From: Spongilla lacustris
Taxonomy: Eukaryota; Porifera; Demospongiae; Spongillida; Spongillidae
Direction of reading: 5' to 3'
Assembly: GCA_949361645.1 (NCBI GenBank)
Contig: OX442420.1
Span: 7,775,584-7,839,583, forward strand
DNA: 64,000 nucleotides
This document shows, one piece after another, positions 10,438 through 64,000 of this stretch (positions are counted from its first letter, which is position 1; each line of letters starts with the position of its first letter). A program made the translations under genes and the position numbers. Under the pieces are notes generated by a model. The model saw nothing but the letters and a program-made list of their open reading frames with translations. It searched no databases and was not told where the DNA came from.

Positions 10438-10440
10438 ACA

Positions 10441-15594: not shown

Positions 15595-16401
15595 ATGGAT
15601 AGTTTGAACGGGTACGAAGTAGAAGTGACTGCACCAAGAGTAGAGGAGGCTGTACGTAGTGGTGGAGCGTTTAAAGATAATTTTACGTTCAGCGGGGCCT
15701 CTTGTGTCGTCAAATTCAAAAGACCAGTGGAAGGCCAATTCCTTATAGAGTGTTGTTTGCAAAGCCGCCTGAGGCATCCGAACATCGTGCAGTTTATTGG
15801 AGTATGGTATGGACAAGATGGCCGCGATCTACACCTCGTTTTGGAACGGATGCACGCTAGCCTTGATGTATCTCTTGAAACCCATCCCAACATCCCCCTC
15901 CCGATCAAACTCTCTGTTCTTCGTGACGTGTCCGCCGGTCTGATGTACCTACACTCCTTTGCCCCGCCCATCATCCACGGTGACCTCACCACCACCAACG
16001 TCCTCCTCACACAGGACTGGAGAGCAAAGATAGCGGACTTTGGTAACAGTGTGGACCAATCCACCTTAGCTATAGCTCCTGGTGCTCGTGCATACATGCC
16101 TCCAGAAGCCCTTACCAGGCCACAGAAGTATGATTCAAAGCTGGACATTTACAGTTTCGGAATATTTGCCCTCTATGTTGGTATACAGACCAGGGATGCT
16201 GATCGCAATAAAAGATCTGACCAGTTTCAGACCTTAGCAGCTACATCAGATGGGGAGTGTCTTTGCCAGATAGTTACATGGTGCTGTGATCATGATCCTA
16301 CCAGAAGACCTTCCTCACATGATTTGAATGTTCAAATGGAACAGCTGTGCTCAGCTAACCCACTTCCATACAAAGACATGGTGCAACTTCTACATGACAA
16401 A
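15595..16401 (+). CDS. Gene B exon 1: TKL-type kinase domain 1, degenerate
   Basis: 269 codons. The ATG at 15595 is preceded by an in-frame TAG at 15586-15588. The normal GxGxxG loop is not recognisable. A Lys is present in CVVKFKRP, a possible alpha-C Glu in FLIECC, then RLRHPNIVQFIGV. The catalytic loop is IIHGDLTTTNVLL (Gly for the Arg of HRD). The metal motif is ADFG, and the activation end is AYMPPEAL. The loss of the glycine loop with catalytic Asp, Asn and DFG kept suggests a weak kinase or pseudokinase. The donor is GAC AAA|GTGAGG (phase 0); reading through would add only a short unrelated tail. Confidence 0.8.
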
Positions 16402-19400
16402 GTGAGGGAAAGGTGCAATGTGACGTGTCTGTATATGTATTATAATTACATCTAGACGTTATGTATGGTGGAATAACCTTGAAATTGTCAACGTGTGCAG
16501 TGTACATTGTATACATGTATGCATGCTGTGCACAAATAACATGTACTATATGTACCTGTGCACAAGTCACTATAATAAAATTCTGCATTATGAAATAAAT
16601 CTTATGGTACAAAACTAATGGCACCTAAGCATGTAAATACATGTTACTGACTGTAGTTAAAAACTCATACAACTTGAGGTCTGAACAAAAATTCAGGCTT
16701 TTAATTTTAGGAAAAAAATAATAACACCAATAGACTGGTTATGCAGAAATACTAAACAAGTGTCATTATCTTGTTTAGTATTTCTGCATAACCAGTCTAT
16801 TGGTGTTATTATTTTTTTACTAAAGTTAAAAGCCTGAAATTTTTGTGCAAACCTCAAGTTAAAATTTTGAGTGAGTTTTTAACTATCTACACATGTACAT
16901 GCTTCGGTGCCATAGTTTTGTACCATAAGATTGCATGGTTTTATTTTATATTGCCTTATAATTTCTTACATGTAGATTGGATACAACACAGAATGCTAGC
17001 TAGCATGGTGTTCACTGGTTGAATGATTAGCGACAAAATGGGGAGCAAGGGCAAGAGTATCCCACCAGCCTGTGTGTGTACCTAACCCCCAGCATTGGGG
17101 GCACCAGCAACTGCCGTGAACCAATACCCGGGTGACCTGAGTATACCTAGCCATGTGGTCCTGGCTTGTCTAGCCAAGTTTGTAGGGACAACCCTTGCCT
17201 TACTGGAATTGAGCATGAAAGAACAAAATGCATTGTACAGCAAAGCACAATTAATACACAGGGATAGGAGGGTGGGAAGGGTGAAATTCTCCAGTGCCTG
17301 TTGATCAGCAGCATGCACTGGAGTTACACATCATTTTTTTGTACCCTGCAGAAGCTACATCAGTACTGTAGTGGCCCAATTAGCTAACAGAGAGGCCATT
17401 ACCTATTGATGTGTAATAAATGTGAGGGCTATTGTGGTGAAACAAAGTGAAGGTGTTTGCATTAAAATAGGGCTATTTCAGGGAAACATCATTTTTCTGA
17501 ACTTGAACTATGCTACATGTAGGTACAGAGTGATAACCTTTGTAAAGAGCTGGAAAACAGGAAGGTGGTTATGTCAGATCAAAGAGTTGTTGAACTACAA
17601 AGAGAGTTAGAGATGACAAAGAGAAGCACGAAAGCTGAAAATGACAAACTTAAGATGGAGATTGGTCAGCTTACTGAAAAATCTCAAGTACGTTTCTCCT
17701 ACATGTACATATACATGTACATGTACATGTGTGCCTAATTTTTTTAGTTACATGTACATGTTTTGCCAGAGGTACATGTACATCTAAACTGTACATTTGT
17801 ATTCAGATAATGTCGAACAATTGCAATGTGAGGGAAGCATGGTACATACATGTATATATATATAATTGGGACAGTTTCCACGAAAATGGCCCTTCGCTTA
17901 TATATATAAAATGTTATAAAAATGCTTCTCTTTTGAATCGCTATATCTTCCGAACGGTTGAAGCTATCAACTTCTTATTTTTAACACTTTATACTACACC
18001 ATTTCTCTATGGTAAAATACATTTTGGGGTCTTGTACTTCCTCCGTGCCAGTATTGCAACGTCCGATACCCCTGTGGGTTCAAACCTGCCATAACTTTCT
18101 GTAGGAGTAATCAAATCGCTTCAAATTCGGTTTGTAGGTAGAGAGGTCGTATACCTATCGATTTGTTCTGTTCGTTAATTTTTATGTCATCCGTTACGGA
18201 GATACAGCGGCGCAAAGTTGCTACAAGTTTCCCGCTCGAATCGCGCCGTTGTACGTGCGTGACCCGCTTCCATGCACCAAATACATGAATATGCAACTAC
18301 TTCCTGTGGGCTGACACTTGGATAACTTAGAGCCACACCTACTCTGCGCTGGATACGTGAATCCATCTCCCGGTCGGACTCACATGCAGTTGTTATACTA
18401 TTCGATCCCTATTTCGTTATCTTCTGCGTACATAAACTTTATGGCGCCGTCAACTGAAGACAAGGTCATAAGAGTTTCAATCGGCGGACGTGAAGTTCGA
18501 GCGGTGCGAATACGACGATCGTGAGAAAGGTTACTAGATTTATGCTAGTACAGTGACGACGGTGGTCCCATTTACACCCTGCACTTGTGTCTGTTGTGGG
18601 ATCAAATCCATGGTCCATTTACATCCTCTGTTGTGGGATCAAATCCATGATCCATTTACATCGTATCCTGGGTTGTGGGATCAAATCCATGGTCCATTTA
18701 CATCCTCTGTTGTGGGATCAAATCCATGGTCCATTTATATGTACAACCTGTACTTGGGGTCAAATCCATGGTCCCATTTACACCCTGTACTTGTGTCTGT
18801 TTAGGGTCAAATGCAAGGTCCCATTTACACACTGTAGGTGTATCTATTGTGGGGTCAAATCCATGGTCCTGTACTTGTGTCTGTTGTGGGGTCAAATGCA
18901 TGATCACATTTACACACTGTACTTGAGTCTGTTTAGGCTCAAATCTATGGTCCCATTTACACCCTGTACTTGTGTCAATTGTGGGGTCAAATCCATGCTC
19001 CCATTTACACCCTGTACTTGAGTATGCTGTGGGGTCAAATCCATGGTTTCTTTTACACCCTGTACTTGTGTCTGTTGTGGGGTCAAATCCATAGTCCCAT
19101 TTACACCCTGTACTTGAGTCTGTTTTAGGGTCAAATCTATGGTTCCATTTACACCCTGTACTTGAGTCTGTTTAGCGTCAATTCATTGGTCCCATTTACA
19201 CCCAGTACTTTTGTCTGTTGCGGAGTCAAATCCATGGTCCCATTTAGACCCTGTACCTGTGATCAAATCCATGGTCACATTTACACCCTGTACTTGTGTC
19301 TGTTGTGGGTTCAAATCCGTGGTCCGATTTACACCCTGTACTTGTGATCAAATCCATTGTCCGATTTACACCCTGTACTTGTGATCAAATCCATGGTCCG

Positions 19401-43400: not shown

Positions 43401-46400
43401 CAGGTTACATACATGTACATGTACATGTATACAAGTACAGTGTAAGGTATATTTTTCAGACACCAATTAATGTTATAATAAGATATACCTCTTCACATGT
43501 TTTTACACCCCTCCTTTCGGATAATATAACCTGTACATGTATGTGAGTGTACATGTATCAATGCCAATAATATACATTTAGTATATACATTATACATTTA
43601 CATGTATGTACTATACATGTGCTTATATATGTACATGTACATGTGCTCAGGCATTGAAGGAAGTCATTATGAAAGGTAATGAAGAAATGGTAGAAAAGCA
43701 GAAGAAACTGGATAAACTAGAAGAGGAGAATGAACGGCTGCAAAGTAAAAGTCCAAGAAAAAGTTCATCCAGCACACATGAAGACTACATTATGTATATA
43801 AGGACTCTAAAGGGTCAGGTGGCATCACTGGAAGAGGACATAGCCAGGTTAAATCAAGTGATTGAGTCAAAGAACATACTGATCAGTGAACTTCAAAAGA
43901 ACAAAGCAGATCTTAAAAGCATAAATAGATGCAATAAAGATGACATTCGTGAGGTGTAGTATACATTGTATCTACAGTAATACTAGTTATTAATAACATT
44001 CCTCTTTCATATTCAAGGGACTGCGTGAACATGGACATACATGTGTGCCACAAGATGGCAGACTAGCTGAAGGATCAAATGATGCTAATTCAAATGGCTT
44101 ACTACAGAAACTGAAAGTTGCAGAGGAGAGAATGATGGCAATGGAAGAATCCTATCGAAGTGCTATTACCAAGATTGAAGTAATCATAGCTGAGGTACAT
44201 TATTAATACCCAATAACCACATGTACTTTAAAAACACTAGTACATGCTGACAGATTCAATTATACATGTACATGTACATGTATGTATAAGCTTTGAAGAT
44301 GCAATGAATATGTACATGTATATCTTCTACTCGATGTGTTGCAGAGGGATATATTTGCAGAAGATTTCAAAAGTGAGAGAGATGACAGGATTAGAGTAGC
44401 AGGTGAAAAGGGTCAAGTAGCAAGTAAACTTAAAGAAGCACAACAAACTATATCTGAGATGAGTGCTAAGCTCAGCAGTGCTATCAAGGAAATAGATCAT
44501 CTTAGTGCTGGATTGAGGCAGGCAACAGATGAGCTTAATCGAGCCAAAGAGGAGATAGCAGTGGAGGTGGCCCAGGTGAAGCAGTACCAGAAACAGGTGG
44601 AGGCTTACAAACAACAGCTTGAGAAGGTACATGTATGAGTACATGTACATGTGCACCACATACATACCCCAGGTACATGTAACATTTATAATTACATACA
44701 TGACAAGCACATCTTACGGAAAAATCTACATGCTTACACACATGACAACGTACATTCATTATAGCGTTAAAAGGGATGTACATGTACATGCACATGTACA
44801 TGTAACATAAGCAGTGAGGGGTCAAAAGGGGGGTGTTTGCTGAGGGAGGGCACATACAGTGTTGTCCTCATATGCCTAGCTACAGTGTGTAAGGGGAACA
44901 AGGGAGCACTGTATACTCCCAACATCAACGTTTGGCAAGCTGCACATTTTATAAATGTTCATGCAGAATCATAAGGAATTTCATTATTTTCTCACATTGT
45001 AGTTAATGTTGTACCATAGTTGTATTTGTTATTACTTCACATATTTTTTTGCCATGCACATGTATACAATGCAGGTATTAAAATGTTACTATCCAATCAC
45101 AATTGAAGTGATCTCATGTGAACTTACACAAAGCTTTCAAATGTTTGAATAGTACATAATTTCATGGACACTAAGTATTTTTCTTTTAACATGTGATGCC
45201 AAACCAATAGGTGTGGTCAATGTAAAGGGGAGTGGCATTACATAATGCTGCTGTGCCTTTGACATAGTACAGCAGTGTGTTTATTGCTGATATCAACTAC
45301 ATTGTATCATGTCCATGGACATACATGTACATGTACATGCATCATACCATACATGTGATCTTCTATATTTCCATTACATTTTAGAATAATGTGCAAATGC
45401 AAGCTTTCAGGCAGCAGGTATTGAAAGCAGTGTACCATAAAGGTGCAGATCACTAACATTGGGTTTGTGTTCACACAGTTGCATCAGATGAGTATGTTAA
45501 AGGAACAGGCTGAGAAAAAGGTAAGACTGATTAGAGTATGTAGAGAACAGAACATGTGCAGTGATTACATGTGCATGCGAACACAATACATATCATGTAC
45601 ATGTGTACATGACACCATACATACATTTGTACATGTACTGATGTGTCTAAAGTACACTGATATATGCCATGCTCATATATACATGTCGTCTGTGTACATT
45701 CAGATGTATCTTAATGTCCATTCCATTGTACATTGTACATTAGTTGAATGAGGTTATGAGAGGCTCTGATACCAAGGTACATGTACATATAAGTACTGAC
45801 TTGTTTGTTGGCTAGCTACTTATGAAATGTATTATGCGGTTATGGTGACCATTGCCTGCTATGATGACCATCCACGTTGCACGTTCAGATTAGTAATATT
45901 TCATATTAATTGTAATAAAAATACTGCATGTAGTTGTACGTACTCACATTACATGTATGCACGTGCACACTACTCTCACTTTGCAGGGTACACCTATTGC
46001 ACATTCCGACACATACACACGTACAACATACATGTGCACCAACATACACATGTCATTTACATGTGTATGTGTGTACACATATGTGATTGTAATTGTAATT
46101 TTTGGCACCCATACATGCCCCATTCTGAAGCACCAAATGCAATGTGGTTTTGGGAAGGAATATAAAATGCAGATAGGAGATAAGTCAACAGTACAAAGTC
46201 GGGTATGTAATAGTGTAATGTTCTGTGAAGACACAACATCCTGAGGTACATGTACATGTAAGTGGTTCCATATAGGTATTACACGTTCAGTGAAAAAATG
46301 CGCTCAAAAATGCATGATGGGGTAGATGTTTGGATCGCAGAATACAAGAATGACCTTGAACTTTTGATACCCTGCATCTAAAAATAGAATGCCATGTATT

Positions 46401-49233
46401 GGACAATTTTAAGATGTCACCTGTACATATATTTGGTATTTACCTCTCTTAATTGTCATTGCCTGAATTTGTAATTGGATTGCAAATTTAATAAGAAGCT
46501 GAAAGTTGAGAGAGTAAGATGGGTACAGAACAGGTGTTGAAAATAAATAATTGGTGGGATTCTGTCCAAATGTGAATGGCTTTGAATTACATGTAACATG
46601 TACATGTATATACCATAGGCATGTACATTGTACTATGGTAACAATGCAGAAGGCAACAGAAGAATGTTACATTATTAGCACACTGGAGGAATTTGATGAA
46701 AGAAAAGTTGTAGGTCATGGAGCATATGGAGCAGTTTATGAAGTTAGGATGAATGGAACACCTTGCATTGCTAAGAAACTTCATGACATTTTGGTAGGCC
46801 AAAGAGGTAACGCTCAAGTTGGAAGGCGTGAAATTGAAGCTGTAAGGAGCAAATTCCAAGCAGAATGTAAACTCCTTAGTAAACTAAAGCATCCAAACAT
46901 TGTTCAGTTTTTGGGCATATATCATGATGGAGATGATGATGTGCTTGTAATGGAATACATGCCCATGGATCTAGCCAAGTGCTTGGATACTTGTACAGAA
47001 CAACAGTTCAACATTCCACTTCCAATAAAGCTGTCCATCCTTCAAGATGTGACCAATGGGCTGCTTCACCTTCATTCCCTAGCCCCACCCATCATCCATC
47101 GTGACCTCACTGCATCCAACATTCTCCTCACATCTGATATGAGAGCTAAGATAGCTGATCTTGGGGTGTCAAAAGTATTTGATCTGCGGCAAGTTCAAAC
47201 CATTCAGCAGACCAAAGCACCTGGCACTCCAGCCTACATGCCACCAGAAGCACTAATCCCAAAACCCCAGTATGATGTACAGTTAGACATATTTTCATTT
47301 GGAGTGTTATCAATCTACTTAGCCATCCAGAAATTTCCTGCCCCCCATGAAGTATTGCTGACTGAAAGTATTGTAAAATATAAAGAATTGCAGATATCTA
47401 AACGACAACATTGGATTGATAAAATGGGAGTGGACCATCCTCTATGTCCCATAGTGGTCCAATGTCTCCAAGACCTTCCAGGGGCCAGACCTACCATCAG
47501 GAAACTCTGGGAGGATATCAGCTCTCTGTGTACCAAACATAAAAAGTATTGGAACAATATTTTGGAGGTATACAATGTGATCAGTAATTTCATTCCGTCT
47601 TTCATTCTGCAATTGTACACTTTACCTGTATGTACAAATCAGGCACACGTGTAATGAGCAAGTGCATATGAATTTCCAATCACCTTTAGGAATAGAAATA
47701 ATCAAAGTAAATAACAGTTTTATTGTGGTAGTGCAATTGCCATAATAACAGTTTTTAGAATAATAATGATTTCTCACTAAATTAGCTTCACTCATGCATT
47801 TTTCATAAGTCAACTGCTAAACTAAGAGATCACCAAACAGCTTCATGTGAGCTGGCTGGTACATGTACATATATAGTTGTATACAAGGTACTGTAATAGT
47901 TCAATCAACATTTTTATCCTTTATTGGTGTGCAATACTTTTTAATTCACATCTGGAGTGCTTCTAAGTGTGGCCGGATGATTACTGAAGCCTACTGTAGT
48001 GCAGGTACGCTGTACATGTGATTGCAGCATTGCTTAGATAGCAGATAGATTTGAGCAAGCCTAGCCACACTACATTATTTAGACACTTTTGCTTTAAACA
48101 TTGCATGGCTTGAGATTTTCCAAGAGCTTACAATGTTGCCTACAAACCTGGTTGTACGTGTAAATGTGACCATATTAATTATTGCTTGTCGAAATGTACA
48201 TGTACCATAAGAATGGTTAAGGTTTGTCAGTTAATGTTGGTCTAACAATACAATATATATTTTCTTTCCCATGCATGTACAAACTGTAGCTAATAAAGGA
48301 AACCGAAGAGCTTAAGGCACAACGTAGGAAACCTGAAGTGGAGAATGTGTCAAAAACTCAACAGGTACATGCACATCTAATACAGAATGCGTTATTAATG
48401 AATACCTCTCACCCGTTTACGATTTAAAGATCACATGTAACATTTTTCACTGGTACATATAAATATTCAATTTCAATGATAATTGAAGATAAAGAGTATT
48501 TCAATCTAGTTATCCCTGTTGATAGTAATGTACAGGGCCATAGGGATGGAAATGGATTTTGGGGGTCTAGCATTTAAATAAATGAGGAGCCTCTCACCCC
48601 GGGCACTGGTGGGTCGTGGAGTACTGAGAGATCCTCATCAGATATGATTCCAGCTCATTTCTAAATTTGTCCATTCTCTGCAACACCTGTTGCTTTAATA
48701 TAAGGTTATAAAACTCCTAAAGGGTATAAGCATGTTTTAAAATTCAGTCTGATGAAAGTAAAAAAAAAAAAAAAAAACAGGTGTTGTTTCTTCATGCCAG
48801 TTTAAGAATATGCTTCAGCTCACTAATATTGTTTCGATCAAGCCACCCAAATACATATCTACATGTATTTCATTCAATGATTATTAATAGTATTATATGG
48901 TGTATGAAATCATTATTGAGGTTATACGTACATGTATGTTCATTTAATTTCAATGGTGCTAACATACATGTATATGATTTAGCTACATGTAATCACTTGA
49001 GCCATTGCCCACGTTACAATGTACTGTACATCTTCCCAAACAGCCAGTACAGAACGTGCCCACTCCCATGTCTCCCATGACAATGATGATGACCTCCCAG
49101 AACCAGCCATACTACACTACCAGGTCACATCCCCCTTGACCCAAACCTGACCTGTCCTTCATGCCGAAAGCAATTCAGGAAGGGGGAGATACAGCTGTAC
49201 AAACAACATGTGCAGATGTGCATGAGTGTGTGA
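15595..49233 (+). CDS. Gene B: kinase-coiled coil-UBAN-kinase-zinc finger protein (fusion model)
   Basis: The exons I support are 15595-16401, 17529-17687, 43651-43953, 44018-44194, 44345-44626, 45385-45417, 45479-45520, 45744-45776, 46496-46513, 46650-47567, 48290-48364 and 49044-49233. All have GT-AG ends and all but the last keep phase 0. Order: degenerate TKL-type kinase 1, long coil, UBAN (AEDFKSERDDR), short coil exons, canonical kinase 2, coil, CC-H-C finger. A 26-kb intron (17688-43650) contains three stacked transposons. Alternatively there are two genes, because kinase 2 has an in-frame ATGGTAACAATG just upstream of its acceptor at 46649. The finger exon appears frameshifted. The same order in gene C supports the arrangement; only a transcript could prove the fusion. 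Confidence 0.6.
16596..16932. repeat. Near-perfect hairpin palindrome in gene B intron 1
   Basis: The arms are about 165 bp with a 9-10-bp loop at 16761-16770, centred at about 16765. The inner ~75 bp of each arm pair almost perfectly. The outer parts (CTTATGGTACAAAACTA / its complement; CTCAAGTT) also match. Gene C has only a single decayed arm at about 54790-54855. Confidence 0.85.
17529..17687 (+). CDS. Gene B exon 2: coiled coil
   Basis: 53 codons, phase 0 at both ends, donor GTACGT. Heptad-rich and highly charged (KELENRKVVMSDQRVVELQR...). It is nearly identical to gene C exon 2 at 55785-55940 except for the last dozen codons. It links kinase 1 to the long coil. Confidence 0.75.
17688..17867. 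other. Left remainder of the host intron
   Basis: Matches the start of the gene C intron up to CAGATAATGTC (about 17812), with added TACATG repeats. It ends in a short (TA)n stretch that was the insertion target of E1. Confidence 0.6.
17868..18345 (+). repeat. E1 left terminal inverted repeat
   Basis: Pairs with 29045-29520. Shared landmarks are GAATCGCTATATCTTCCGAA, GGTTCAAACC, CTTCAAATTCGGTTTGTAGG and CGGAGATACAGCGGCGCAAA. The E0 and E2 ends share the inner landmarks but differ in the outer ~60 bp. Confidence 0.85.
18441..18524 (+). pseudogene. Degenerate 5' end of the E1 gene beside the left repeat
   Basis: ATGGCGCCGTCAACTGAAG... encodes a 27-residue ORF ending at TGA. It aligns with the start of the 893-codon gene (ATGGCGACAACTGACG...) and with the E2 copy (GCGGACG/GAGTTCGA...GTACGAATACGACGATCG). 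So the homology of the two ends extends past the repeat into the coding start. Confidence 0.6.
18560..20335. repeat. Satellite S1: 48-bp and 37-bp unit array
   Basis: About 40 units with core TCAAATCCATGGTCCCATTT followed by ACACCCTGTACTTG. The long form (48 bp) adds TGTCTGTTGTGGGG; the short form (37 bp) lacks it. A higher-order block is visible: 19215-19440 resembles 19812-20035, spaced about 597 bp. Open frames on both strands here are repeat translations. Confidence 0.9.
20525..22372. repeat. E1 internal palindrome, arms ~900 bp
   Basis: Pairs such as 20933-20943 with 21955-21965 and 21126-21240 with 21660-21775 give a centre near 21445. The outer limits are about 20525 and 22372. The centre contains ACCTGCCCTATCGGTACTG and its complement. 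Related sequence recurs singly in the E2 core (about 35320-35660). Its apparent ORFs have no other support. Confidence 0.8.
22373..24790. repeat. Satellite S2: ~71-bp dimeric unit array
   Basis: About 34 units. Each is a dimer of related ~35-bp halves: CTTAACGACACATACATAAG-GTGTACAGAGATGACT and CTTAACCACACAGACGTAAG-GTGTACAGGTGACC. Some units miss an internal ~24-bp piece (ACATACAGAGATG), giving mixed periods. Confidence 0.9.
24846..24905 (-). pseudogene. Relic of the E1 gene 3' end
   Basis: Nearly the same as 26251-26310, the stop-codon region of the 893-codon gene (GSALYTH...DHGS). One codon is changed to TGA between the finger His residues. It marks an older partial copy inside E1. Confidence 0.75.
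24914..25440 (+). pseudogene. Ser-rich open stretch with one in-frame stop
   Basis: In one frame it encodes a Ser/His/Pro-rich, SR-like segment (SRSPSQSSSSPHTSHHSTR). A single TAG at 25108-25110 interrupts it. It then continues in the same frame to about 25440 through a Pro/Gln/Trp-rich segment (QSPSQSWSQAPLPWTAG). No family recognised. It may be a decayed accessory gene of E1 or a captured exon. Confidence 0.35.
25606..25925. repeat. Short tandem array S3, ~100-bp unit, about three copies
   Basis: The unit contains CGACTTTTCTTCACGAGTGC, ACCAGAGCTACATGTACATG and a second half CGACTTTTAACTTCACGGGTGCACC. Each unit therefore is itself a degenerate dimer. Confidence 0.85.
25926..26267. other. 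E1 internal non-coding stretch
   Basis: AT-rich sequence between S3 and the stop of the E1 gene. Nothing specific seen; it could hold the 3' UTR of that gene. Confidence 0.4.
26268..28949 (-). CDS. E1 transposase-like protein with C-terminal C2H2 fingers
   Basis: 893 codons from ATG at 28949 (MATTDDELVVYHSADEFEW); the frame is open 12 codons further upstream, but this ATG matches the E2 and left-end copies. Residues ~1-115 are Asp/Gly/Ser-rich and acidic. Then comes a Cys cluster (CCKDGC), a helix-turn-helix-like stretch (FCAVIGTSYRTLKRWQQ), a Cys pair (SDLCDKCDQ, ~370), and a central domain with LQADNCVGQNKN (~525) and LPGHTKFRPDSYFG (~560). Two C2H2 fingers end the protein (CTVCGNKYG...; CFVCGNKYG...). 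The QADNCVGQNKN / GHTKF pair is what I know from the DUF7869-type family of repetitive invertebrate proteins, probably RNase H-fold; from memory, not searched. Uninterrupted, so possibly active. It lies beside the right inverted repeat. Confidence 0.75.
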   Translation of the reverse strand: MATTDDELVVYHSADEFEWYDNLDVDEEGGANGDGEYRSGDSDGIYSDVCEDGINDDGESDGDDGDGESDDGGSDDGGSDDGGSDSDKDCDGSDCDGDSGSDCDDDVSKGPGGVPARIARGQCRPRRMLNAYLTKGGCCKDGCLLKYGDLPKRRALTLSRLDKKTRKAVVYGMLAVTRNKSGSRNTFQYRLDWSSPVCRDAFCAVIGTSYRTLKRWQQQVCSDSDVEPHPHGNCGRAPHNALSREDKRMVVRFIENYAATNALPDPGRLQGTIRDYVLESGKTLKSVYAEYCKAMESLSKTTPAPQQPCPYKLTTRLKRQYTLLNVPPAPPTPPAACVVKYVSFIRLWRRYCFNIKIQPARSDLCDKCDQMLVTLRHSLSDEQRKTINDKYNQHLIKVKAFRDAYNANIEEAEKEWGSKGQKERDQILGHLESRALMAPFTSHAHLDMQMQYSFDYCQQVSLPYSSQQRGTFYFRTPRKVQVFGVCCEPLCRQVFFLIDEAEQAGKGAVVVVSLVHAFFHLHGLGERRVTLQADNCVGQNKNTTMMWYLAWRVITGQHNAIQLNFMLPGHTKFRPDSYFGLFKKYYRRQDHVDDMDDLADCVRHCGQNVTCVPQLYQNWQYYDWNTFLGQWFTPLAGLGRYHTFEFDREHPGVMKMKMLPSDTNPTEMSMLRAGVAIKDIQEAYQSQSMPPVINPSGLSLMRSLYLYERVREYVRDPKKRDKVCPKPPPNSEATSSYPCGNASSLPENDQPGPSTAFPHSPTCTVEGHESAEDTYSEVQDEANSCVSGRRKRRPRSELILAYQCTVCGNKYGSGSALSLHKKMTHKQPAVPGDEHSGATKVDSASVDVGSQDPSKRRCRKKSEIDRPFSCFVCGNKYGSSSALYTHKKKDHGS
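29045..29520 (-). repeat. E1 right terminal inverted repeat
   Basis: Complement of 17868-18345. It lies ~95 bp upstream of the E1 gene start and so probably carries its promoter. Confidence 0.85.
29548..30363. mobile_element. E0: 816-bp palindromic short derivative
   Basis: Ends GGGACAGTATCCGCGAAA (29548) and its complement ...GATACTGTCCC (30363). Two ~390-bp arms meet near 29955, where GATTCGCGCCAATGAT and its complement lie on the two sides. It has no ORF. The inner arm sequence is related to the E1 and E2 ends. ATAT flanks both ends. It sits only 27 bp after E1. Confidence 0.85.
30913..31158 (+). pseudogene. Truncated 5' end of E1-type gene in E2 left arm
   Basis: 81-codon ORF starting MVTYNTSERELVEFHRIS. 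DNA and protein align with the start of the 893-codon E1 protein (GAGCTCGTCG, GCGGA(C/T)GAGTTCGAA, then an acidic DEDGE stretch). It then runs into repeat sequence. It could encode a short N-terminal peptide or be dead. The mirrored right-arm copy begins at 40541 on the minus strand and has a TGA after ...EFH. Confidence 0.6.
31091..35280. repeat. Two ~2.1-kb tandem repeats of E2 left arm
   Basis: Landmarks recur about 2.07-2.19 kb apart: GAGCCCCTAAATTACC-type start (31101/33286), GAGTCAGCAGCCCC (31921/34110) and ACCTGTCCTTCACTGAA (32958/35024). C-rich runs lie near 31667-31680, 32310-32338, 33849-33872 and 34566-34590. Confidence 0.8.
35281..36740. other. E2 central spacer
   Basis: The left part (35300-35700) resembles the centre of the E1 palindrome: GGGTTACACTGGTA, GTGTAGGGTCTGCTAACTTC-like text, and TATATAAACCAAC. 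The right part is diverged arm-type sequence with a poly-G near 36381-36398. No gene supported. Confidence 0.55.
36741..41038. repeat. E2 right arm
   Basis: Reverse complement of the left arm. Examples: 38488-38562 with 33055-33130, and 36740-36790 with 34856-34905. It also contains two tandem ~2.0-kb units and a poly-G at 39767-39787. Confidence 0.8.
41039..41750. other. Right remainder of the host intron, first part
   Basis: The stretch around 41282-41375 (CCATGGCTCCATAATAAGCAGAGTCCCACA) matches gene C at 56148-56225, so host intron sequence resumes here. No gene is seen. Confidence 0.55.
41900..42830 (-). pseudogene. Decayed Ty3/gypsy-type integrase remnant
   Basis: On the minus strand, in shifting frames, there are landmarks of an LTR-retrotransposon integrase: a D-x-G-x-x-F-like segment (HTDKGKNFDSG), then EICQLLGIKK, then a DRFN...DLKLPPLFMAI-like segment, then a C-terminal QGPYRVVKV-like piece. 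Many stops and frameshifts separate them. No LTRs or reverse transcriptase seen. This stretch is absent from the gene C intron. Confidence 0.5.
42831..43650. other. Right remainder of the host intron, second part
   Basis: No gene is supported up to about 43500, though part may belong to the retroelement. From about 43500 (TTTACACCCCTCCTTT...TATAACCTGTACATGTATGTGAG) the sequence matches the end of the gene C intron (56690-56780). Confidence 0.5.
43651..44194 (+). CDS. Gene B exons 3 and 4: long coiled coil
   Basis: Exon 3 (43651-43953, 101 codons) and exon 4 (44018-44194, 59 codons) are separated by a 64-bp intron (GTGTAG...TTCAAG), all phase 0. Exon 3 is highly charged heptad sequence with a Ser-rich break (SPRKSSSSTHED). 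Exon 4 ends in LLQKLKVAEERMMAMEESY..., the coil that leads into the UBAN motif, as in NEMO and optineurin. The gene C equivalents are 56783-57052 and 57108-57266, lacking 11 and 6 codons. Confidence 0.75.
44345..44626 (+). CDS. Gene B exon 5: UBAN ubiquitin-binding motif
   Basis: 94 codons. It starts RDIFAEDFKSERDDRIRVAG, a good match to the UBAN pattern (DI-x-x-x-DF-x-x-ER-x-x-R) that contacts linear ubiquitin in NEMO, optineurin and ABINs. A coil follows (SEMSAKLSSAIKEIDHLS...) and ends KQVEAYKQQLEK at the GTACAT donor. Key Asp-Phe, Glu-Arg and Arg positions are all kept, so binding is plausible. Confidence 0.75.
45385..45776 (+). CDS. Gene B small coil exons
   Basis: Three short in-frame exons with good splice sites: 45385-45417 (NNVQMQAFRQQ), 45479-45520 (LHQMSMLKEQAEKK) and 45744-45776 (LNEVMRGSDTK). 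Each is a multiple of three and phase 0. I found no counterparts in gene C, which lacks about 1.3 kb here. Confidence 0.5.
46496..46513 (+). CDS. Candidate 18-bp microexon before kinase 2
   Basis: AAG|AAGCTGAAAGTTGAGAGA|GTAAGA encodes KLKVER, phase 0. The gene C counterpart is 59023-59040 (KLGVER) with AG and GT kept. Conservation of both sites supports splicing into the kinase 2 exon, but so short an exon could be chance. Confidence 0.35.
46650..47567 (+). CDS. Gene B kinase domain 2 (TKL-type, canonical)
   Basis: 306 codons, phase 0. Motifs in order: glycine loop GHGAYGAVYEV, Lys in CIAKKL, alpha-C Glu in FQAECKLL, KLKHPNIVQFLG, hinge LVMEYMP, catalytic loop IIHRDLTASNILLT, ADLG in place of DFG, activation segment end GTPAYMPPEAL, and DIFSFGVL. 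All residues needed for phosphotransfer are present; DLG is tolerated in several kinases. It differs from gene C kinase 2 at only a handful of residues. Alternative start: ATG at 46635 (MVTMQKATEE...) in the same frame, if kinase 2 is its own gene. Confidence 0.85.
48290..48364 (+). CDS. Gene B coil exon after kinase 2
   Basis: 25 codons, LIKETEELKAQRRKPEVENV..., phase 0, donor GTACAT. The gene C counterpart (60886-60960) has the same length. The Leu-to-Pro change (RRKP for RRKL) would weaken the coil in B. Confidence 0.65.
49044..49233 (+). pseudogene. Gene B zinc-finger exon, apparently frameshifted
   Basis: Acceptor CAAACAG. In phase 0 it reads PVQNVPTPMSPMTMMMTSQN... and meets TGA at the CCCCCTTGACC run. 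The finger (CPSCRKQFRKGEIQLYKQH...C) is intact but one frame over. Gene C has one C fewer relative to frame and lacks the 9-bp AGGTCACAT, so its finger is in frame. Unless an unseen splice choice restores frame, gene B has lost its finger. Confidence 0.6.
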
Positions 49234-52135: not shown

Positions 52136-52227
<92 letters not shown>

Positions 52228-52640: not shown

Positions 52641-52674
52641 ACTGTACCTCTTCCGTCCATTTTCTGTATTTCAG

Positions 52675-52962
52675 TTAATGATGTGCTTGGATGCTTATAC
52701 GGCAATATTCCACTTCCAATAAAGCTGTCCATCCTTCAAGATGTGACCAATGGGCTGCTTCACCTTCATTCCCTAGCCCCACCCATCATCCATCGTGACC
52801 TCACTGCATCCAACATTCTCCTCACATCTGATATGAGAGCTAAGATAGCTGATCTTGGGGTGTCAAAAGTATATTTGATCAGCTCAGACCATTCAGCAGA
52901 CCATGCAGGCCAAAGCACCTGGCATGGCACTCCAACACTGTATCCTTCTGTCACCTGCACTG
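52675..52962 (+). pseudogene. R2: truncated kinase-2 exon copy
   Basis: After a splice-acceptor-like TATTTCAG the sequence encodes NIPLPIKLSILQDVTNGLLH and continues through IIHRDLTASNILLT and ADLGVSKV in frame. It then breaks at ...GTATATTTGATCAGC (frame lost) and ends within the CCAAAGCACCTGGCA-TGGCACTCC region. No N-lobe. Non-functional as a kinase. Confidence 0.8.
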
Positions 52963-53707: not shown

Positions 53708-54499
53708 ATGGATAGTTTGAGCGGGTACAAAGTAGAAGTGACTGCACCAAGAGCAGAGGAGGCTGTACGTAGTGGTGGAGCGTTTAACGATAATGTTAAG
53801 TTCAGCGGGGCCTCTTGTGTCGTCAAATTCAAAAGACCAGTGGAAGAGTGTTGTTTGCACAGCCGCCTGAGGCATCCGAACATAGTGCAGTTTATTGGAG
53901 TATGGTATGGACAAGATGGCCGCGATCTACACCTCGTTTTGGAACGGATGCACGCTAGCCTTGATGTATCTCTTGAAGCCCATCCCCACATCCCCCTCCC
54001 GATTAAACTCTCTGTTCTTCGTGACGTGTCCGCCGGTCTGATGTACCTACACTCCTTTGCCCCGCCCATCATCCACGGTGACCTCACCACCACCAACGTC
54101 CTCCTCACACTGGACTGGAGAGCAAAGATAGCGGACTTTGGTAACAGTGTGGACCAATCCGCCTTAGCTATAGCTCCTGGTGCTCTTGCATACATGCCTC
54201 CAGAAGCCCTTACCAGGCCACATAAGTATGATTCAAAGCTGGACATTTTCAGTTTCGGAACAGTTGCCCTCTATGTTGGTGTACAGACCAGGGATGCTGA
54301 TCACAGTAAAAGATCTGACCAGCTTCGGACCTTAAGAGCTGCACCAGATGGGGAGTGTCTCTACCAGATAGTCACATGGTGCTGTGATCATGATCCTACC
54401 AGAAGACCTTCCTCACATGATTTGAACATTCAAATGGAACAGCTGTGCACAGCTAATCCACTTCCTTACAAGGACATGGTGCAACTTCTACATGACAAA
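53708..54499 (+). CDS. Gene C exon 1: kinase domain 1, degenerate
   Basis: 264 codons, ATG in context GCCATGG. Same features as gene B kinase 1 (no glycine loop, HGD catalytic loop, ADFG, PPEAL). Five residues (GQFLI) just before the alpha-C region are deleted, so the text reads RPVEECCLHSRLRHPN. Donor GTGAGG at 54500. Confidence 0.8.
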
Positions 54500-57400
54500 G
54501 TGAGGGGAAGGTGCAACGTGTCTATGTACATGTATGGTGACATTGTGTATACATGCATGTGCATGTATTTAACTGCATTTGAAAGTAGCTACAATGTACC
54601 TTGTATGATGGAATGGCCTGAAATTCTTAACACCTACATGTACAGTGCTCAGCTGAGACATGTACATGTATATGAATGTACTGCATGTACTTGCTGATAC
54701 TTGTATTTTATTAAGCATTATCTATGTTAATTATGGTCCATTCCAGGACATGCATAATGCTGTGTGTACATGTACATGTAGATAATTATAACTTGAGGCC
54801 CGCACAAGAATTTCAGGCTTTTATATAAATAAAAGCAGCAATAGACTGGTTGTATGCCACTTGATGTACTTGTGTGTTACATCATGTACAGTATACATGT
54901 ACACTGTACATGTACTGTGTATAGTGGCGTATCCACAGAGGGTGCTCCACCCCTCGGCCATAGGTGCTAATATTAATAATTAGCCGCCGCACGTATTTGA
55001 TCATGTCGATTTTGAAGCACTTCCAAACATTTAAAGTAGTGCTACCAAGTGCCGCAACCTCATTGGCTGTTTCAAGTGATGATGTCTCTTCAGCCAATAT
55101 AGGTAAAATTACCATTTGTTATTTAATGCCATTCTTAAATTTTATACCACATACTTGTACATGTACATGCAGATTTGACTAGAGATGAACAACCACGTTC
55201 CAGTGGCTTGGCACAGGCATAGATTAATTTTGTAGGCATAATCCACGAAGACTGCAAACGGAGTTCATCCTGAATGATTCTTGCTGCATGCATCTTTGCT
55301 CAGTTTCATTATTTCCATGTTGCTGCTACATGTATAACATAATGCTGTCCTCATAAGTGTGGTAAATCAAAAGACTTCTAAGTAAAATATAAATAGAAAT
55401 ACAGCCTATGACAAAACTAATTAACCAAATTGAATATGATATAATTATTATGTTTGTTGTACTGCATGACAGTTATACATGTATAAATATAATATTTATT
55501 GCGAAGCTGCTACTGCATGGTGCACATGAAACCACGAGGCTTCATAAACCAAATACAATATTTCTTCAAAAGCTTCCGCGCTTCATGCGGGAGCTGGGTA
55601 CATCCCCCTCCCACACCCTCCCCCTGCCTCGGACCTCCCCTTCCAGCACCCCCTCACAGAATCCTGGATACACCACTGGTGTACATGTATGGTATGTATT
55701 CATGCAGTCTAAATTTGTTTCTTTTTTAAATAAAATATGGAAAGTAGTTATTTTTCTGAACTTGAATTATCTTATGTACTGAAGGATAACCACTGCAAAG
55801 AGCTGGAAAACAGGAAGGTGGTTATGTCAGATCAAAGAGTGCTTGAACTGCAAAGAGAGTTGGAGATGACAAAGAGAAGCATGAAAGCAGAAAATGACAA
55901 ACTTAAGATGGAGATTAAAGAGCACATTGGAAAACATGAAGTATGTTTCTCATAAACATGTTTTGCTAGGGATATATCTAAACTGTACATTTGTGTTCAG
56001 ATAATGTCATAAATACTCTTCATTGTGGGGAAGATGTTACAGTGTGGTGTGAATGTGGATTATGTATATAGTTTTTTCAACTTAATTATCCCTTTTCATG
56101 ATATGATGCAACCTTTAAAGCATTAGAAGATAACTTTCCACTAACCAGTCCATGGCTCCATAATAAGCAGAGTCCCACATCGCAATACACCACACTAGAG
56201 CACTAGAGGCCTACCATTATATTATATTGGACACAAATGACATATACATATATGACACATGTGGTATGTGATGCCGGCTAATGGGGCCAAGAAATATGCT
56301 CACAAACGGGTGCAGTTGCCAGAAGCAGGTATGTAACTAGAAGTGAAATGGTACGAAAGATGTGTGGATGGTCACTGTAGATACATGTACTTATTATAAT
56401 AGTTTAGGTACTTAAGTTGTCCTTTTGAATTTTAAGTTGTCCAAATTGATACTGCACTCTTCTGGAATTTTCTACAGGAATACATGTGTACATCATGTAT
56501 GTAAATGTTACATTAACAAAGTACGTACATGTACATGCCCAAGTACTTTTACATGTAGAATATTTGAGGGGTGTGTTTCATAGAGAATTGAGGAATTTAC
56601 TTTGGCAATTATGTTAAATCTGCACATAGAATGTGTAATGTACTAATGTTTTAATAAGATACCTCTGCATATTTCAGTTTATACACTCCTCCTTTTGATA
56701 ATATAGCCTGTACATGTATGTGAGTACATGTATTTCATTGACAATGAGAATATAATAATACATGCATGTGCTTATACTTCAGGCATTGAAGCAAATCATT
56801 GAGAAAAATAATGAGGAAAAGGTACAAAACCAGAGGAAACTGGATCAATTAGGAAAGGAGATCGAATGGCTTCAAAATAAAAGTTCAAGAAAAAGTTCAT
56901 CCAGCACACATGAAGACTATATAAGGACTCTAAAGGGTCAGGTGGCATCACTGGAAGATGACAAATTCAGGTTAAATCAAGTGATTGAGACAAAGAACAG
57001 ACTGATCAGTGAACTACACACATCTAGATGGAATGAAGATGACATTCATGAGGTGTAGTGATATATCTACAGTTATTCAGTAATAACATTCCACTTTCAT
57101 ATTCAAGGGACTGCGTGTGCCACAAGATGGCAGACTAGCTGAAGGATCAAATGATTCTAATTCGAATGGCTTACTACAGAAACTGAAAGTTGCAGATGAG
57201 AGAATTATGGCAATGGAAGAATCCTATCGAAGTGCTCTTAACAAGATTGAAGTAATCACAGCTGAGGTATTCCCAATTGTTTAAATACTTGTATATGCTG
57301 ACAGACTTGTTAGTGTACATGTACATGTACATGTACATGTAGGTCTGCACATTTATTTGTGCATGTATAACCTTATGAATGTGTGTGTTGCAGAGAGATA

Positions 57401-60400
57401 TATTTGCAGACGATTTCAGAAAGGAGAGAGATGACAGGATTAGAGTAGCAGGTGAAAAGGGTCAAGTAGCAAGTGAACTTGAAGCAGCACAACAAAAGAT
57501 ATCTGAGATGAGTGCTAAGCTCAACAGTGCTATCAAGGAAATAGATCATCTTAGTGCTGGGTTGAGACAATCAACAGATGAGCTTAATTTGGCCAAAGAG
57601 GAGATAGCAGTGAAGGTGGCCCAGGTGAAGATGTACCAGAAACAGGTGGAGGCTTACAAACAACAGGCACTGTTGACTGCACAGGTACACTGTACTGTAT
57701 AAAACCATGCGTATGGATACATTGAGCAGTTGAGCAGGTACACATTCATGTACATGTACATGCATGTACATTATAATCATGAGAACGTACATGTATACAA
57801 GCAATGGCTGTCACTCATGCACGTCCCACATACATTCTGATGCACCAAATGTGATGTGGTTTTCTTGCATGCATCTACATGTAGATATGCTAGATATAAA
57901 AAAAAATTTAAAAAATAAAATTGGTGATGTATGATTTGTTGAGTATAAAGTAAGGAAATCAGGAATTACGGAAATTATACATTTATTAATATTTTATTTA
58001 GCAAACATTTACATGTACATGTACCTGCAAATTGCTAAATGTAGTACATATCTGTAATAAATTAATCAATGTATGATTTCCATAATTCCTTGTTTCCTTA
58101 CTTTGTATTCAACTGAGCTGGCTCTCTGTCTACAAATCCTAAATCTTTTTAATATCTTAATGTGTGACTCATTTTTTGTCTGTCTGGGAGAGTGATGTAT
58201 GTGATTAAATATACATGTAGAGATGGGGCCTGCTGGTGGGGCTAGCCACTCGTATACTGATGTAGGTACAGGTGTGTTGTTTAGACTCTGAGTATATGTT
58301 ACAATGTAGTGGTTTCTGCAACTGACCACAAGCTACTGTAGGCATATCCCACTTTTATGGTTCACAAGGCTGATAAAATCTGTTGTGGGAAAATAAAGTT
58401 TGCTAAAGATTGACATTGTGTTCAGCATAACTGACTCTAACAAAGTCATAGTACTAAAAAAAAATTCGGCAATAAGTTTCTAACTTGTGTTCTATAGTTC
58501 ATTTTTATAACCACCAACACCGGCTTTGATCGCTACGAATATACTATGCAATAAATCTCTTATCCAAACAAATCTTATCAGATCCAGAAGAAGAATGGAG
58601 AAAAATATTTTAAGGCTTGAGTGTGGGAATGAGTGAGCGTTATCTCTGTAATTGTCTAAGCATCGGCAGTTTTACTACATTGTATTGGATGGCTCTATCC
58701 AAATATGAGTACTGCTTACTGTTCAAAGTGCAATTGATTTTACTGTACATGGCAACAGTGATGTGCTAATTGTATTCACAACACTTCAAATCCTACATAG
58801 GGATACTTGTACATGTACTAAATTTATGTAGATCCTGACATGTGATTATTGAGGTCATATCACTTTGATCAACTGCATGTGATAGCCAAACGAGAAAATG
58901 GGATGCACGTTAACAATTTTAGAATGTTACCTGTTTTTAGTATTCATCTCTCTTAATTGTCAGTGCTTGCATGAATTTATTTATATTTTATTTGGACTGT
59001 AAATTGTTTTAGAAACTGGGAGTTGAGAGGGTAAAAAAACGTGTACAGAACAGGTGTTGAAAATATGTACAATCTGTATCTGTTAGTTGGGATTCTGTCC
59101 AAATTTGAGTGGTTTTGAATTTACATGTACATGTGTACATGTACATGTATATCTCAATTGTTATCTTTACATGTACATGAACATGTGTACATGATGTACT
59201 ACGCGGGCCATGGTAACAATGCAGATGGTAACAGAAGAATGTTACACTATTGGCACACTGGAGGAATTTGATGAAAGGAAAGTTTTAGGTCATGGAGCAT
59301 ATGGAGCAGTTTATGAAGTTAGGATGAATGGAACACCTTGCATTGCTAAGAAACTTCATGACATTTTGGTAGGCCAAAGAGGTAACGCTCCAGTTGGAAG
59401 GCGTGAAATTGAAGCTGTAAGGAGCAAATTCCAAGCAGAATGTAAACTCCTTAGTAAACTAAAGCATCCAAACATTGTTCAGTTTTTGGGCATATATCAT
59501 GATGAAGATGATGATATGCTTGTAATGGAATACATGCCCATGGATCTGGCCAAGTGCTTGGATACTTGTACAGAACAACAGTTCAACATTCCACTTCCAA
59601 TAAAGCTGTCCATCCTTCAAGATGTGACCAATGGGCTGCTTTACCTTCATTCCCTAGCCCCACCCATCATCCATCGTGACCTCACTGCATCCAACATTCT
59701 CCTCACATCTGATATGAGAGCTAAGATAGCTGACCTTGGGGTGTCAAAAGTATTTGATCTGCGGCAAGTTCAAACCATTCAGCAGACCAAAGCACCTGGC
59801 ACTCCAGCCTACATGCCACCAGAAGCACTAATCCCAAAGCCCCAGTATGATGTACAGTTAGACATATTTTCATTTGGAGTGTTATCTATCTACATAGCCA
59901 TCCAGGAATTTCCTGCCCCCCATGAAGTATTGCTGACTGAAAGTATTGTAAAACATAAAATAGTCCAGATATCTAAACGACAACATTGGATTGATAAAAT
60001 GGGAGTGGACCATCCTCTTTGTCCCATAGTGGTCCAATGTCTCCAAGACCTTCAAGGGGCCAGACCTACCATCAGGAAACTCTGGGAGGATATGAGCTCT
60101 CTATGTACCAAACATAAAAAGTATTGGAACAATATTTTGGAGGTATACAATGTGATCAGTAATTTCATTCTGTCTTTCATTCTGCAATTGTACACTTTAC
60201 CTGCATGTACAAATCATGCACACATGTAAGGAGCAAGTGCATATGAATTTCCAATCACCTTTAGGAATAGAAATAATCAAAGTAAATAACAGTTTTATTG
60301 TGGTAGTGCAATTGCCATAATAACATATTGCTGGATACACGTGCAGACTGTTTAATAATAATGATTTCTCACTAAATTAGCTTCACTCATGCATTTTTCG

Positions 60401-61788
60401 TAAGTCAACTGCTAAACTAAGAGATCACCAAACAGCTTCATGTGAGCTGGCTGGTACATATACATATATAGTTGTATACAAGGTCCTGTAAAAGATTATT
60501 AATACTTCAATCAACATTTTAATCCTAAGGTACATGTACATGTATGCAATGCTTTTTAAATCACATCTTGAGTACTTCTAAGTGTGGATGATTACTGAAG
60601 CTTACTGTAGTGCTGTACATGTGATTGCAGCATTGCTACACAGCAAATAGATTTGTGCAAGCCTAGCCACACTACATTATTTAGGCACTTTTGCTTTAAA
60701 TATTGCATGGCTTGAGATTTTCCAAGAGCTTACAATGTTGCCCTACACCTGGTTGTATATGTACATGTGTAAATGTGACCTTATTAATTATTGCTTGTCG
60801 AAATGTACCACTGATAAGATAGGTAAAGGTTTGTAAGTTAATGTTGATCTAACGTATATTTTTCTTTCCCATGCACAATGTGCAGCTAATAAAGGAGAAT
60901 GAAGAGCTTAAGGCACAAAGGAGGAAACTTGAAATGGAGAATGTGTTGAAAACTCAACAGGTACATGCACATGTACATGTAATACAGAATGTGTCAGTTA
61001 TTTAAAAAACACCTCTCGCCTGTTTAAGATTTAAAAATCACATTTAATATTTTACACTAGTGTACATGTACATGTAAATATTCAATTTCAATTATAATTG
61101 AGTATTTTAATCTTGTTACCCCTGTTGATAGTATTTTGTTACAATTTACAGGGCCGTAGGGATGAAACAGGAGTTTGGGGGTCTAGCATTTAAATACATG
61201 AGGAGCCTCTCACCCCGGGCACTGGTGGGTAGTGGAGTACTGAGAGATCCTGATTCCAGCTCGTTTCTAAATTTGTCCATTCTCTGCAACACCTGTTCCT
61301 TTAATATAAGGTTATGAAATTCCTATAAAGGGTATAAGCATGTTTTAAAATTCCATAATTTAAAAAATAAAAACAGGCGTCGTTTCTACATCCACGCCAG
61401 TTTAAGAATATGCTTCAGCTCACTAATATTGTTTCGATCAAGCCACCCAGATACACAACTACATATAATGATTAGTATTATATGGTCTATGAATATGTTA
61501 TTGAGGTTATACATGTATATAAACACATGTACATGTATGTTCATTTAAATTAAATGTGCTAACATATGATTCTGCTAAATGTGTACATGTTACAGTGTAT
61601 TGTACATCTTCCCAAACAGCCAGTACAGTCCCATGTCTCCCATGACAACGATGATGACCTCCCTGAACCAGTCATCATGCACTACCCCCCTTGACCCAAA
61701 CCTGACCTGTCCTTCATGCCAAAGGGTGTTCAGGATTGGAGATATACAGCTGTACAAACAACATGTGGAGATGTGCATGAGTGTGTGA
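53708..61788 (+). CDS. Gene C: kinase-coiled coil-UBAN-kinase-zinc finger protein
   Basis: The exons are 53708-54499, 55785-55940, 56783-57052, 57108-57266, 57394-57684, 59023-59040 (candidate), 59225-60142, 60886-60960 and 61624-61788. All are phase 0, giving about 974 codons if one gene. It has the same order as B: degenerate kinase 1, coil, UBAN (ADDFRKERDDR), canonical kinase 2, coil, CC-H-C finger. The last exon needs the downstream acceptor CAAACAGCCAG|TAC; using the first AG gives a stop before the finger. The three small coil exons of gene B are missing. Kinase 2 has a possible own start (GGCCATGGTAACAATG at 59210), so a two-gene reading is also open. It is the most intact copy of the array. 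Confidence 0.65.
55785..57266 (+). CDS. Gene C exons 2-4: coiled coil
   Basis: Exons 55785-55940 (52 codons), 56783-57052 (90) and 57108-57266 (53). The 842-bp intron between the first two is the site that in gene B holds ~23 kb of transposons. Charged heptad sequence throughout; same Ser-rich break (SSRKSSSSTHED). Confidence 0.7.
57394..57684 (+). CDS. Gene C exon 5: UBAN motif
   Basis: 97 codons, RDIFADDFRKERDDRIRVAG at the start, then the same coil as gene B, ending KQVEAYKQQALLTAQ. UBAN key positions (DF, ER, R) are conserved. Confidence 0.75.
57936..58112. repeat. Small palindrome in gene C intron
   Basis: Arms of about 60 bp: GTATAAAGTAAGGAAATCAG ... at 57943 against its complement ending near 58112, centre about 58024. 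One arm resembles sequence after the gene B finger exon (about 49535-49600). Confidence 0.6.
59225..60142 (+). CDS. Gene C kinase domain 2 (TKL-type, canonical)
   Basis: 306 codons with GHGAYGAVYEV, CIAKKL, FQAECKLL, IIHRDLTASNILLT, ADLG and AYMPPEAL. Near-identical to gene B kinase 2 in DNA as well as protein, so either recent duplication or gene conversion. Confidence 0.85.
60886..61788 (+). CDS. Gene C last exons: coil and zinc finger
   Basis: Exon 60886-60960 (LIKENEELKAQRRKLEMENV...) and exon 61624-61788 ending in DPNLTCPSCQRVFRIGDIQL, then H and C, with TGA at 61786. The finger is in frame here, with CPSC, His and Cys present. Confidence 0.65.
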
Positions 61789-63798: not shown

Positions 63799-64000
63799 TT
63801 TATGATGTGCTTGGATACATGTACTTGTACAGAACAACAGTTCAACATTCCCCTTCCAATAAAGCTGTCCATCCTTCAACACTGTGCAAAAAGTTTGTTA
63901 TACGATAGTGTATATTTATGCGTATATTTGAGGAATGCGCAAAATATAACCTGTGTAGTATATTTGAAGTGTACGACCGCGTATATTTGAGAATACGCAA
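63799..64000 (+). pseudogene. R3: kinase-2 exon relic, interrupted
   Basis: After TATTTCAG the sequence encodes MMCLDTCTCTEQQFNIPLPI, KLSILQ, as in kinase 2. At about 63880 it switches to unrelated DNA with repeats of GCGTATATTTGAG and TGCGC/ACGC. This looks like the edge of another insertion that continues past the window. Confidence 0.65.

Follow-up and report, generated by a model that had tools for sequence, protein, structure and literature searches.

The window, a stretch of 64,000 nucleotides from the sponge Spongilla lacustris (bases 7775584-7839583 of contig OX442420.1, here chromosome C6), was analysed around two genes, B and C, that combine kinase exons with a ubiquitin-reading UBAN exon. 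The most robust result was a chromosome-scale family of kinase-UBAN-finger members on C6, together with a chain joining UBAN to a kinase in the gene model of at least one other named demosponge. B and C are probably members of this large sponge family, whose standard product would carry a TKL-type kinase, a coil, UBAN and a C2HC-like finger in a single chain, and in which the original last exon of B and C was probably replaced by a block of second kinase, coil and finger. On the sequence, it is very likely that a kinase and UBAN share one protein in some form; that UBAN is spliced to the second kinase in B and C, giving a two-kinase protein, is plausible at slightly less than an even chance.

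Both genes were read on one strand in the same exon order: a first kinase (K1), coils, UBAN, a second kinase (K2), a short coil and a zinc finger (Table 1). By open-frame reading, all borders were GT-AG and phase 0 except at the last exon of B, and a stop lies in frame three codons 5' of the K1 ATG of B. The K1, coil, UBAN and K2 exons of both genes were free of stops, and C was open as far as the finger. The original prediction had described K1, coils, UBAN and K2 with phase-0 junctions and a frameshifted last exon in B, and frame reading bore this out (in B the upstream frame meets a stop and the finger lies in another frame). Its coils were all present, but one phase-0 coil exon directly after K1 had been overlooked in each gene; in B this exon is separated from coil 1 by a repeat-filled intron of 26 kb. 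The array on C6 was far larger than the two tandem genes.

Identity and order of the kinase, UBAN and finger exons

The genome (248.6 Mb, 51 contigs) was searched for the array elements, and all counts are lower bounds. At least 88 K2-like places (E up to 1e-20) and at least 55 K1-like places were found; 14 K2 loci at 86-100% identity and ten K1 places at 68-100% identity were all on C6. At least 29 matches were obtained with the UBAN exon of C, at least 61 with the coil of database protein P0037 (see below) and at least 61 with fingers. For an order map, 50 kinases, 70 UBAN groups (80 matches) and 57 fingers on C6 were arranged by strand and their labels shuffled 20000 times; kinase fragments, coil-only matches and matches on other contigs were excluded. 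Kinase followed by UBAN was observed 25 times (15.4 expected; 25 was reached in 21 of 20000 shuffles), UBAN followed by finger 31 times (17.6 expected; 0 of 20000) and the kinase-UBAN-finger triple 14 times (3.9 expected; 0 of 20000), counts that describe order and not independent events because the copies are related by duplication and the lists are incomplete. With B and C removed, 14 triples still remained (3.6 expected). In 8 of 10 K1 copies the first same-strand element 3' of K1 was a UBAN less than 20 kb away; among the others, B reached UBAN at 28 kb and the tenth copy ran into K2. From the order test, the standard member therefore appears to be kinase-coil-UBAN-finger, and through the recurrent triples the joining of an N-terminal kinase to UBAN is well supported. 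A frame of 1816 amino acids containing UBAN was dropped as proof of a splice-free fusion, being produced by unread bases of the locus. Many kinase matches on C5, C6, C14, C16 and C19 lay in single frames of about 1000-1970 amino acids, lengths that unread bases may inflate.

In searches of protein databases, 237 proteins were listed of 5669 and 1990 matches, and the UBAN core was found in two of the 237, with one kinase each. P0037 is an open reading frame of 488 amino acids on an ENA contig of 2,219 bases, possibly a cDNA, with the UBAN core, a K2-type kinase (59% identity) and a coil; no first kinase and no finger were found in this frame. P0214, a Halichondria panicea model of 1026 amino acids, carries the UBAN core YENDFNEERAARER and then a kinase 40% identical to K2, with no finger seen; its database name, 'cyclin-dependent kinase 11B-like', hides this architecture of UBAN and TKL-like kinase. 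Both UBAN calls were made on the core motif. Two Ephydatia muelleri models contained a UBAN-tail motif: P0153 (Em0002g1322a) followed by kinase, coil and zinc finger, and P0148 (EMCRGX_G007056) between a kinase and a finger-like end. P0187, listed with CC2-LZ and a kinase, lacks the DFxxER core and was left unused as proof of fusion. A structure model of P0037 was also set aside (predicted local distance difference test score, pLDDT, 61; predicted template modelling score, pTM, 0.41), consisting of a long helix and a poorly modelled kinase. No relatives were confirmed in viral and prokaryote contigs. The predicted single protein that reads ubiquitin and carries a kinase is well supported at the sequence level by the K1-then-UBAN copies and by P0037 and P0214.

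The top Pfam match of the UBAN exons was CC2-LZ (PF16516), at 34.8 bits for B and 33.5 bits for C, which is 0.5 and 1.8 bits short of the curated cut-off of 35.3 bits. A failure of UBAN profiles to match had been named beforehand as a possible refutation, and both exons did match. As a control, heptad-preserving shuffles of the C exon were searched, and one of ten matched CC2-LZ, at 19.2 bits and in another region of the profile. Across the genome 23 CC2-LZ matches were obtained (18 on C6, 4 on C22, 1 on C14), one of them above the cut-off; the core motif DFxxERxxR, scored as [DEN][FY]xxERxxR, was present in 22 of the 23 loci and in both B and C. A profile was built from 10 of 13 aligned UBAN exons of this genome, three being dropped because their cut pieces missed the core; the columns D, F, E, R, D and R were invariant across the ten. 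Against solved structures this profile matched ABIN1 (1.9e-7), NEMO (6.4e-6), ABIN2 (1.4e-5) and optineurin (0.0012). With the C exon alone, ABIN1 was the sole UBAN protein found in PDB, and an unrelated coil ranked ahead of it at 0.0032. The predicted NEMO-type reader was thus confirmed as to the UBAN family, but by sequence the nearest UBAN is ABIN1 rather than NEMO. D472 of TNIP1 (ABIN1) is presumably the Asp of the DF motif. According to a passage of PMC11940065, ubiquitin binding is lowered by D472N in human TNIP1 (D485N in mouse).

The UBAN exon of an upstream unit, A, was called from the core motif and alignment; its CC2-LZ score (19.3 bits, best shuffle 19.2) was dropped as evidence. 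A second, smaller cluster of UBAN exons was observed on C22 at 1.95-2.00 Mb (L018, L022, L024, L029), with the core YxxDFExERAxREK, which looks nearer NEMO or optineurin; no K1- or K2-type kinase passed 1e-8 in these four fetched loci.

In K1, HGD replaces HRD, the glycine loop is altered and the stretch before the C helix is shortened, so the residue set of an active kinase is incomplete in HRD and the glycine loop, activity being judged from residues only. The lysine, C-helix Glu, catalytic Asp and Asn, and DFG are retained, and the predicted degenerate first kinase is therefore degenerate in its HGD and broken glycine loop but keeps most catalytic residues. The K1 relative in L050 has an intact glycine loop, GDGTFG, yet also HGD. 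The predicted structure of K1 (pLDDT 77, pTM 0.80) was nearest LIMK2, CTR1, LIMK1, RIPK2 and IRAK4, among many kinases. K2 is canonical, as predicted, with Lys, C-helix Glu, HRD, DLG and the glycine loop GHGAYG all present; its best PDB sequence match was IRAK4 (1.3e-27), and among the matches listed its nearest named relatives came from the freshwater sponge Ephydatia muelleri at about 60% identity, with ENA contigs at up to 90%.

The second kinase of genes B and C

K2 acceptors scored 0.5 to 3.8, inside the range of other family acceptors (-14.4 to 10.9), and ranked at 81-91% among 416 background AGs; the score did not discriminate between start and acceptor at K2 and was rejected as a test of the two. 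The K2 donor after NN(I/T)LE is common to B, C, L041 and L052, with different codons following it in L041 and L052, so K2 is probably spliced onward. As exon evidence, the change in identity between B and C at the edges of K2 was undecisive, since identity falls at the start and stays high beyond the donor.

Several observations weigh against reading B and C as single-chain members of the family, or against their two-kinase form. On C6, UBAN followed by kinase was without enrichment (13 against 15.4 expected), and UBAN-kinase-finger was observed 5 times against 3.9 expected (5 was reached in 6912 of 20000 shuffles), or 3 times against 3.6 with B and C removed. Three close relatives, L032, L033 and L036, have the coils and UBAN in common with B and C; in them UBAN is followed by a finger exon, K2 being absent. 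Pyrimidines number 6-8 of 17 before K2 and 8-14 before most family exons, and an acceptor at 45987 in B rivals that of K2 with a better pyrimidine tract. In 8 of 10 copies examined the K2 exon opens exactly with an ATG, the exceptions being B and P0012. Among the database proteins, P0153 and P0148 lack the UBAN core DFxxER and have one kinase each, P0037 (21.9 bits) and P0214 (24.9 bits) fall below the CC2-LZ cut-off, at 2.7-5.7 bits above the best shuffle, and the protein-database search for coil-UBAN relatives found none. Between B and C, the ratio of nonsynonymous to synonymous substitution rates (dN/dS) reached or exceeded about 1 for K1 and for two coils. The predicted two-kinase order accordingly held in its exons on one strand and its fitting phases, but was weakened by the lack of enrichment, the three relatives without K2 and the rival acceptor in B.

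The retained ATG is what would be expected of two adjacent genes per locus, K1-coil-UBAN, its own finger lost, and K2-coil-finger, starting at the K2 ATG; the kinase-UBAN fusion would then persist through K1, and no protein would hold both kinases. Such a pair of genes is a real possibility, at somewhat less than an even chance. Close K2 copies lie directly 5' of a finger, with no UBAN detected between, in 9 of 14 cases (B and C included) and before a UBAN of their own in 5 of 14, and an intact acceptor and stop lie 5' of K2 in B; the spacer of C, however, has no such remnant. The exon-start ATG of K2 has been lost in B, although two in-frame ATGs sit just upstream. The K2 acceptor score inside the family range, and the occurrence of this kinase type behind UBAN or a UBAN-tail in one chain in P0037 and P0153, also argue for a spliced K2.

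For the origin of the layout, the relatives without K2 were compared with the spacers of B and C. Only L032 was clean, with its K1 exon and every coil open; in L036 the UBAN match was split and only the K1 end was visible because the locus begins there, and coil 1 of L033 was interrupted by stops. Kinase exons were found at 1e-8 in 3 of 20 fetched loci (L032, L041, L050), the other loci extending about 4 kb upstream of UBAN where first exons are often 4-9 kb away. In the spacer between UBAN and K2 of B, intron sequence of the L032 type extends as far as the beginning of a finger exon at 45987, where the acceptor is intact and the first codons remain; homology then ends and the frame stops after 85 codons. 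No L032-type remnant was found in the corresponding spacer of C. Elsewhere, close K2 copies are followed at three places by a finger 78% identical to that of C. UBAN lies 0.2-0.3 kb 5' of K2 in L041, that K2 carrying a stop and a frameshift, and 6.7 kb before another K2 in L048. From the relatives without K2, the remnant in B and the K2-finger copies elsewhere, the second half of B and C therefore appears to have been joined by rearrangement; their two-kinase layout reads as a local rearrangement of a K2-coil-finger block. Two more K2 fragments, 90% identical in DNA, were observed 3' of B and C (52703-52924 and 63807-63879), a sign of repeated K2 turnover.

A transcript that skips K2 would stay in frame, since the junctions at the end of UBAN, at both ends of K2 and at the beginning of coil 3 are phase 0, and relatives without K2 exist. 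The locus might thus produce alternative transcripts, in which K1-coil-UBAN is spliced to coil 3 and finger, K2-coil 3-finger arises from an inner promoter, and the run-through form is made besides. This is considered unlikely; coil 3 was not found at useful scores in L032, L033 and L036.

Between B and C, where changes are few, dN/dS was 1.03 for K1, 1.48 for coil 1, 1.85 for coil 2, 0.61 for UBAN, 0.65 for K2 and 0.26 for coil 3; for the finger, dS was 0.106 and dN 0.109. Against more distant copies, values of 0.41-0.49 (K1) and 0.38-0.48 (K2) were obtained, and among close relatives values scattered from 0.26 to 1.30 for UBAN exons and from 1.04 to 2.07 for coil 1. These values fit a constrained family whose recent copies are relaxed or fast-changing, and do not imply function of B or C. 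Ratios near or above 1 between recent copies in several exons would also be expected if B and C were decaying, functionless tandem copies and their layout a by-product of array turnover, as would the frameshifted last exon, broken remnant exon and 26-kb intron of B and the damage in L041 K2 and L033 coil 1. Decay of this kind is judged improbable in view of the uninterrupted exons of both genes and the constraint seen at longer distance.

Features of the window

The exons of B and C and the neighbouring unit A are given in Table 1. The 26-kb intron of B contains, on the minus strand at 26268-28994, a mobile-element-like frame of 908 amino acids with DUF7869 (1.1e-16) and weak C2H2 fingers, and, at 30365-41053, a large GC-rich inverted repeat with arms up to 99% complementary and opposite skews in its halves. 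Near the inverted repeat lie a 2.4-kb satellite (22375-24793) and minisatellites (18590-20320). Further upstream, a duplicated segment (5399-7973 and 10440-12535; 85-88% identical) combines a terminal zinc-finger exon and a frame (7254-7985 and 11480-12541) that by eye resembles a membrane protein of several helices; no Pfam family was found for either frame at 0.01. The second finger copy of this segment carries a stop.

Table 1. Coordinates of exons and related features, numbered from the first base of the window.
Feature	Position	Strand	Remarks
Unit A, UBAN exon of another array member	4234..4539	+	core YEEDFCVERNDR; CC2-LZ 19.3 bits
Unit A, frame with terminal zinc finger, of the kind seen in members without K2	5316..5993	+	
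B exon K1, degenerate TKL-type kinase	15595..16401	+	start ATG, phase-0 donor; PF00069 7e-26
B extra coil exon, between K1 and next coil	17529..17687	+	phase 0, GT-AG; homologous in C and L032
B coil exon 1	43651..43953	+	phase 0, GT-AG
B coil exon 2	44018..44194	+	phase 0, GT-AG
B UBAN exon	44345..44626	+	CC2-LZ 2.2e-8; profile match to ABIN1/NEMO
B putative remnant of ancestral last exon	45987..46244	+	tblastn with L032 finger exon: 45924-46007, 75%, 1.9e-6
B exon K2, canonical IRAK/TKL-type kinase	46650..47567	+	PF00069 2.3e-38; donor kept in L041 and L052
B coil exon 3	48290..48364	+	phase 0, GT-AG
B zinc-finger exon, frameshift 5' of finger	49053..49233	+	upstream frame hits stop, finger in other frame
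C exon K1	53708..54499	+	PF00069 3.1e-24; 90% identity to B K1
C extra coil exon	55785..55940	+	phase 0, GT-AG; homologous in B
C coil exon 1	56783..57052	+	phase 0, GT-AG
C coil exon 2	57108..57266	+	phase 0, GT-AG
C UBAN exon	57394..57684	+	CC2-LZ 6.1e-8; ABIN1 in PDB 0.0066
C exon K2	59225..60142	+	PF00069 5.1e-39; 95% identity to B K2; best PDB match IRAK4
C coil exon 3	60886..60960	+	phase 0, GT-AG
C zinc-finger exon (CPSC...HVEMC)	61624..61788	+	open up to stop; finger homologous in P0153

Known readers and kinases, and meaning for sponges

ABIN1/TNIP1, ABIN2, NEMO and optineurin resemble B and C in the UBAN core and coil, with ABIN1 the best profile match, and NEMO and optineurin also end in a zinc finger. 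These scaffolds are not known to carry a kinase domain, whereas in the sponge family kinase exons precede UBAN and in B and C also follow it. NEMO has an N-terminal IKK-binding region; the N-terminal part of B and C is a kinase exon, and no IKK-binding motif was searched for. Among TKL kinases, IRAK4 is like K2, and LIMK2, CTR1, LIMK1, RIPK2 and IRAK4 are like the K1 model. In contrast to IRAK4, RIPK2 and the LIM kinases, no death or LIM domain was seen in B and C, ubiquitin would be read in the same chain, and K1 has HGD and a broken glycine loop. P0037 matches the central part of B and C in its order and differs in lacking a first kinase and finger; P0214 shares UBAN followed by kinase and differs in its C-terminal kinase of lower identity and in the finger; P0153 and P0148 have a similar order of parts and differ in the UBAN core and in their single kinase.

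In studied animals, a UBAN reader and its partner kinase are distinct proteins and come together when needed. The open-licence PMC literature yielded no description of a protein that combines UBAN and kinase (listings partly incomplete; subscription papers outside the search). In its main text, a 2026 review of holozoan NF-kB does not mention NEMO, ABIN or TNIP (PMC13042239), and in a comparison of NEMO across distant organisms 'sponge' appears once, in a reference (PMC10694592).

If the exons are spliced together in vivo, the standard family product would consist of an N-terminal TKL-type kinase, a coiled coil, an ABIN/NEMO-type UBAN and a C2HC-like zinc finger, and B and C would have exchanged their original last exon for the K2-coil-finger block of another array member. 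The likeliest transcript of C would be the run-through K1-coil-UBAN-K2-coil-finger; that of B, whose finger is frameshifted, may end at the remnant exon instead. The UBAN coil would dimerise and, where a receptor complex has been activated, bind the Met1- or Lys63-linked ubiquitin chains formed there. Chain binding could raise the local concentration of the attached kinases and so allow trans-activation of K2, as in IRAK4; the degenerate K1 might act allosterically or in docking, and the finger might provide a second contact.

It is tentatively proposed, at somewhat less than even confidence, that sponges possess a fast-duplicating set of ubiquitin-sensing kinases built as single chains, with dozens of genes on one chromosome and with reader, scaffold and kinase of an NF-kB/IRAK-like pathway in one protein; in some copies, such as C, a second kinase would have been added, so that the reader lies between a degenerate kinase and a catalytic one. 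The tandem, fast-changing array suggests a lineage-specific repertoire, and its role may be immune. A one-chain version in sponges, if true, would show covalent wiring of reader and kinase and would offer a minimal natural construct for studying kinase activation by chain binding; it would also connect part of the expansion of TKL kinases in sponges with ubiquitin, and probably with immunity.

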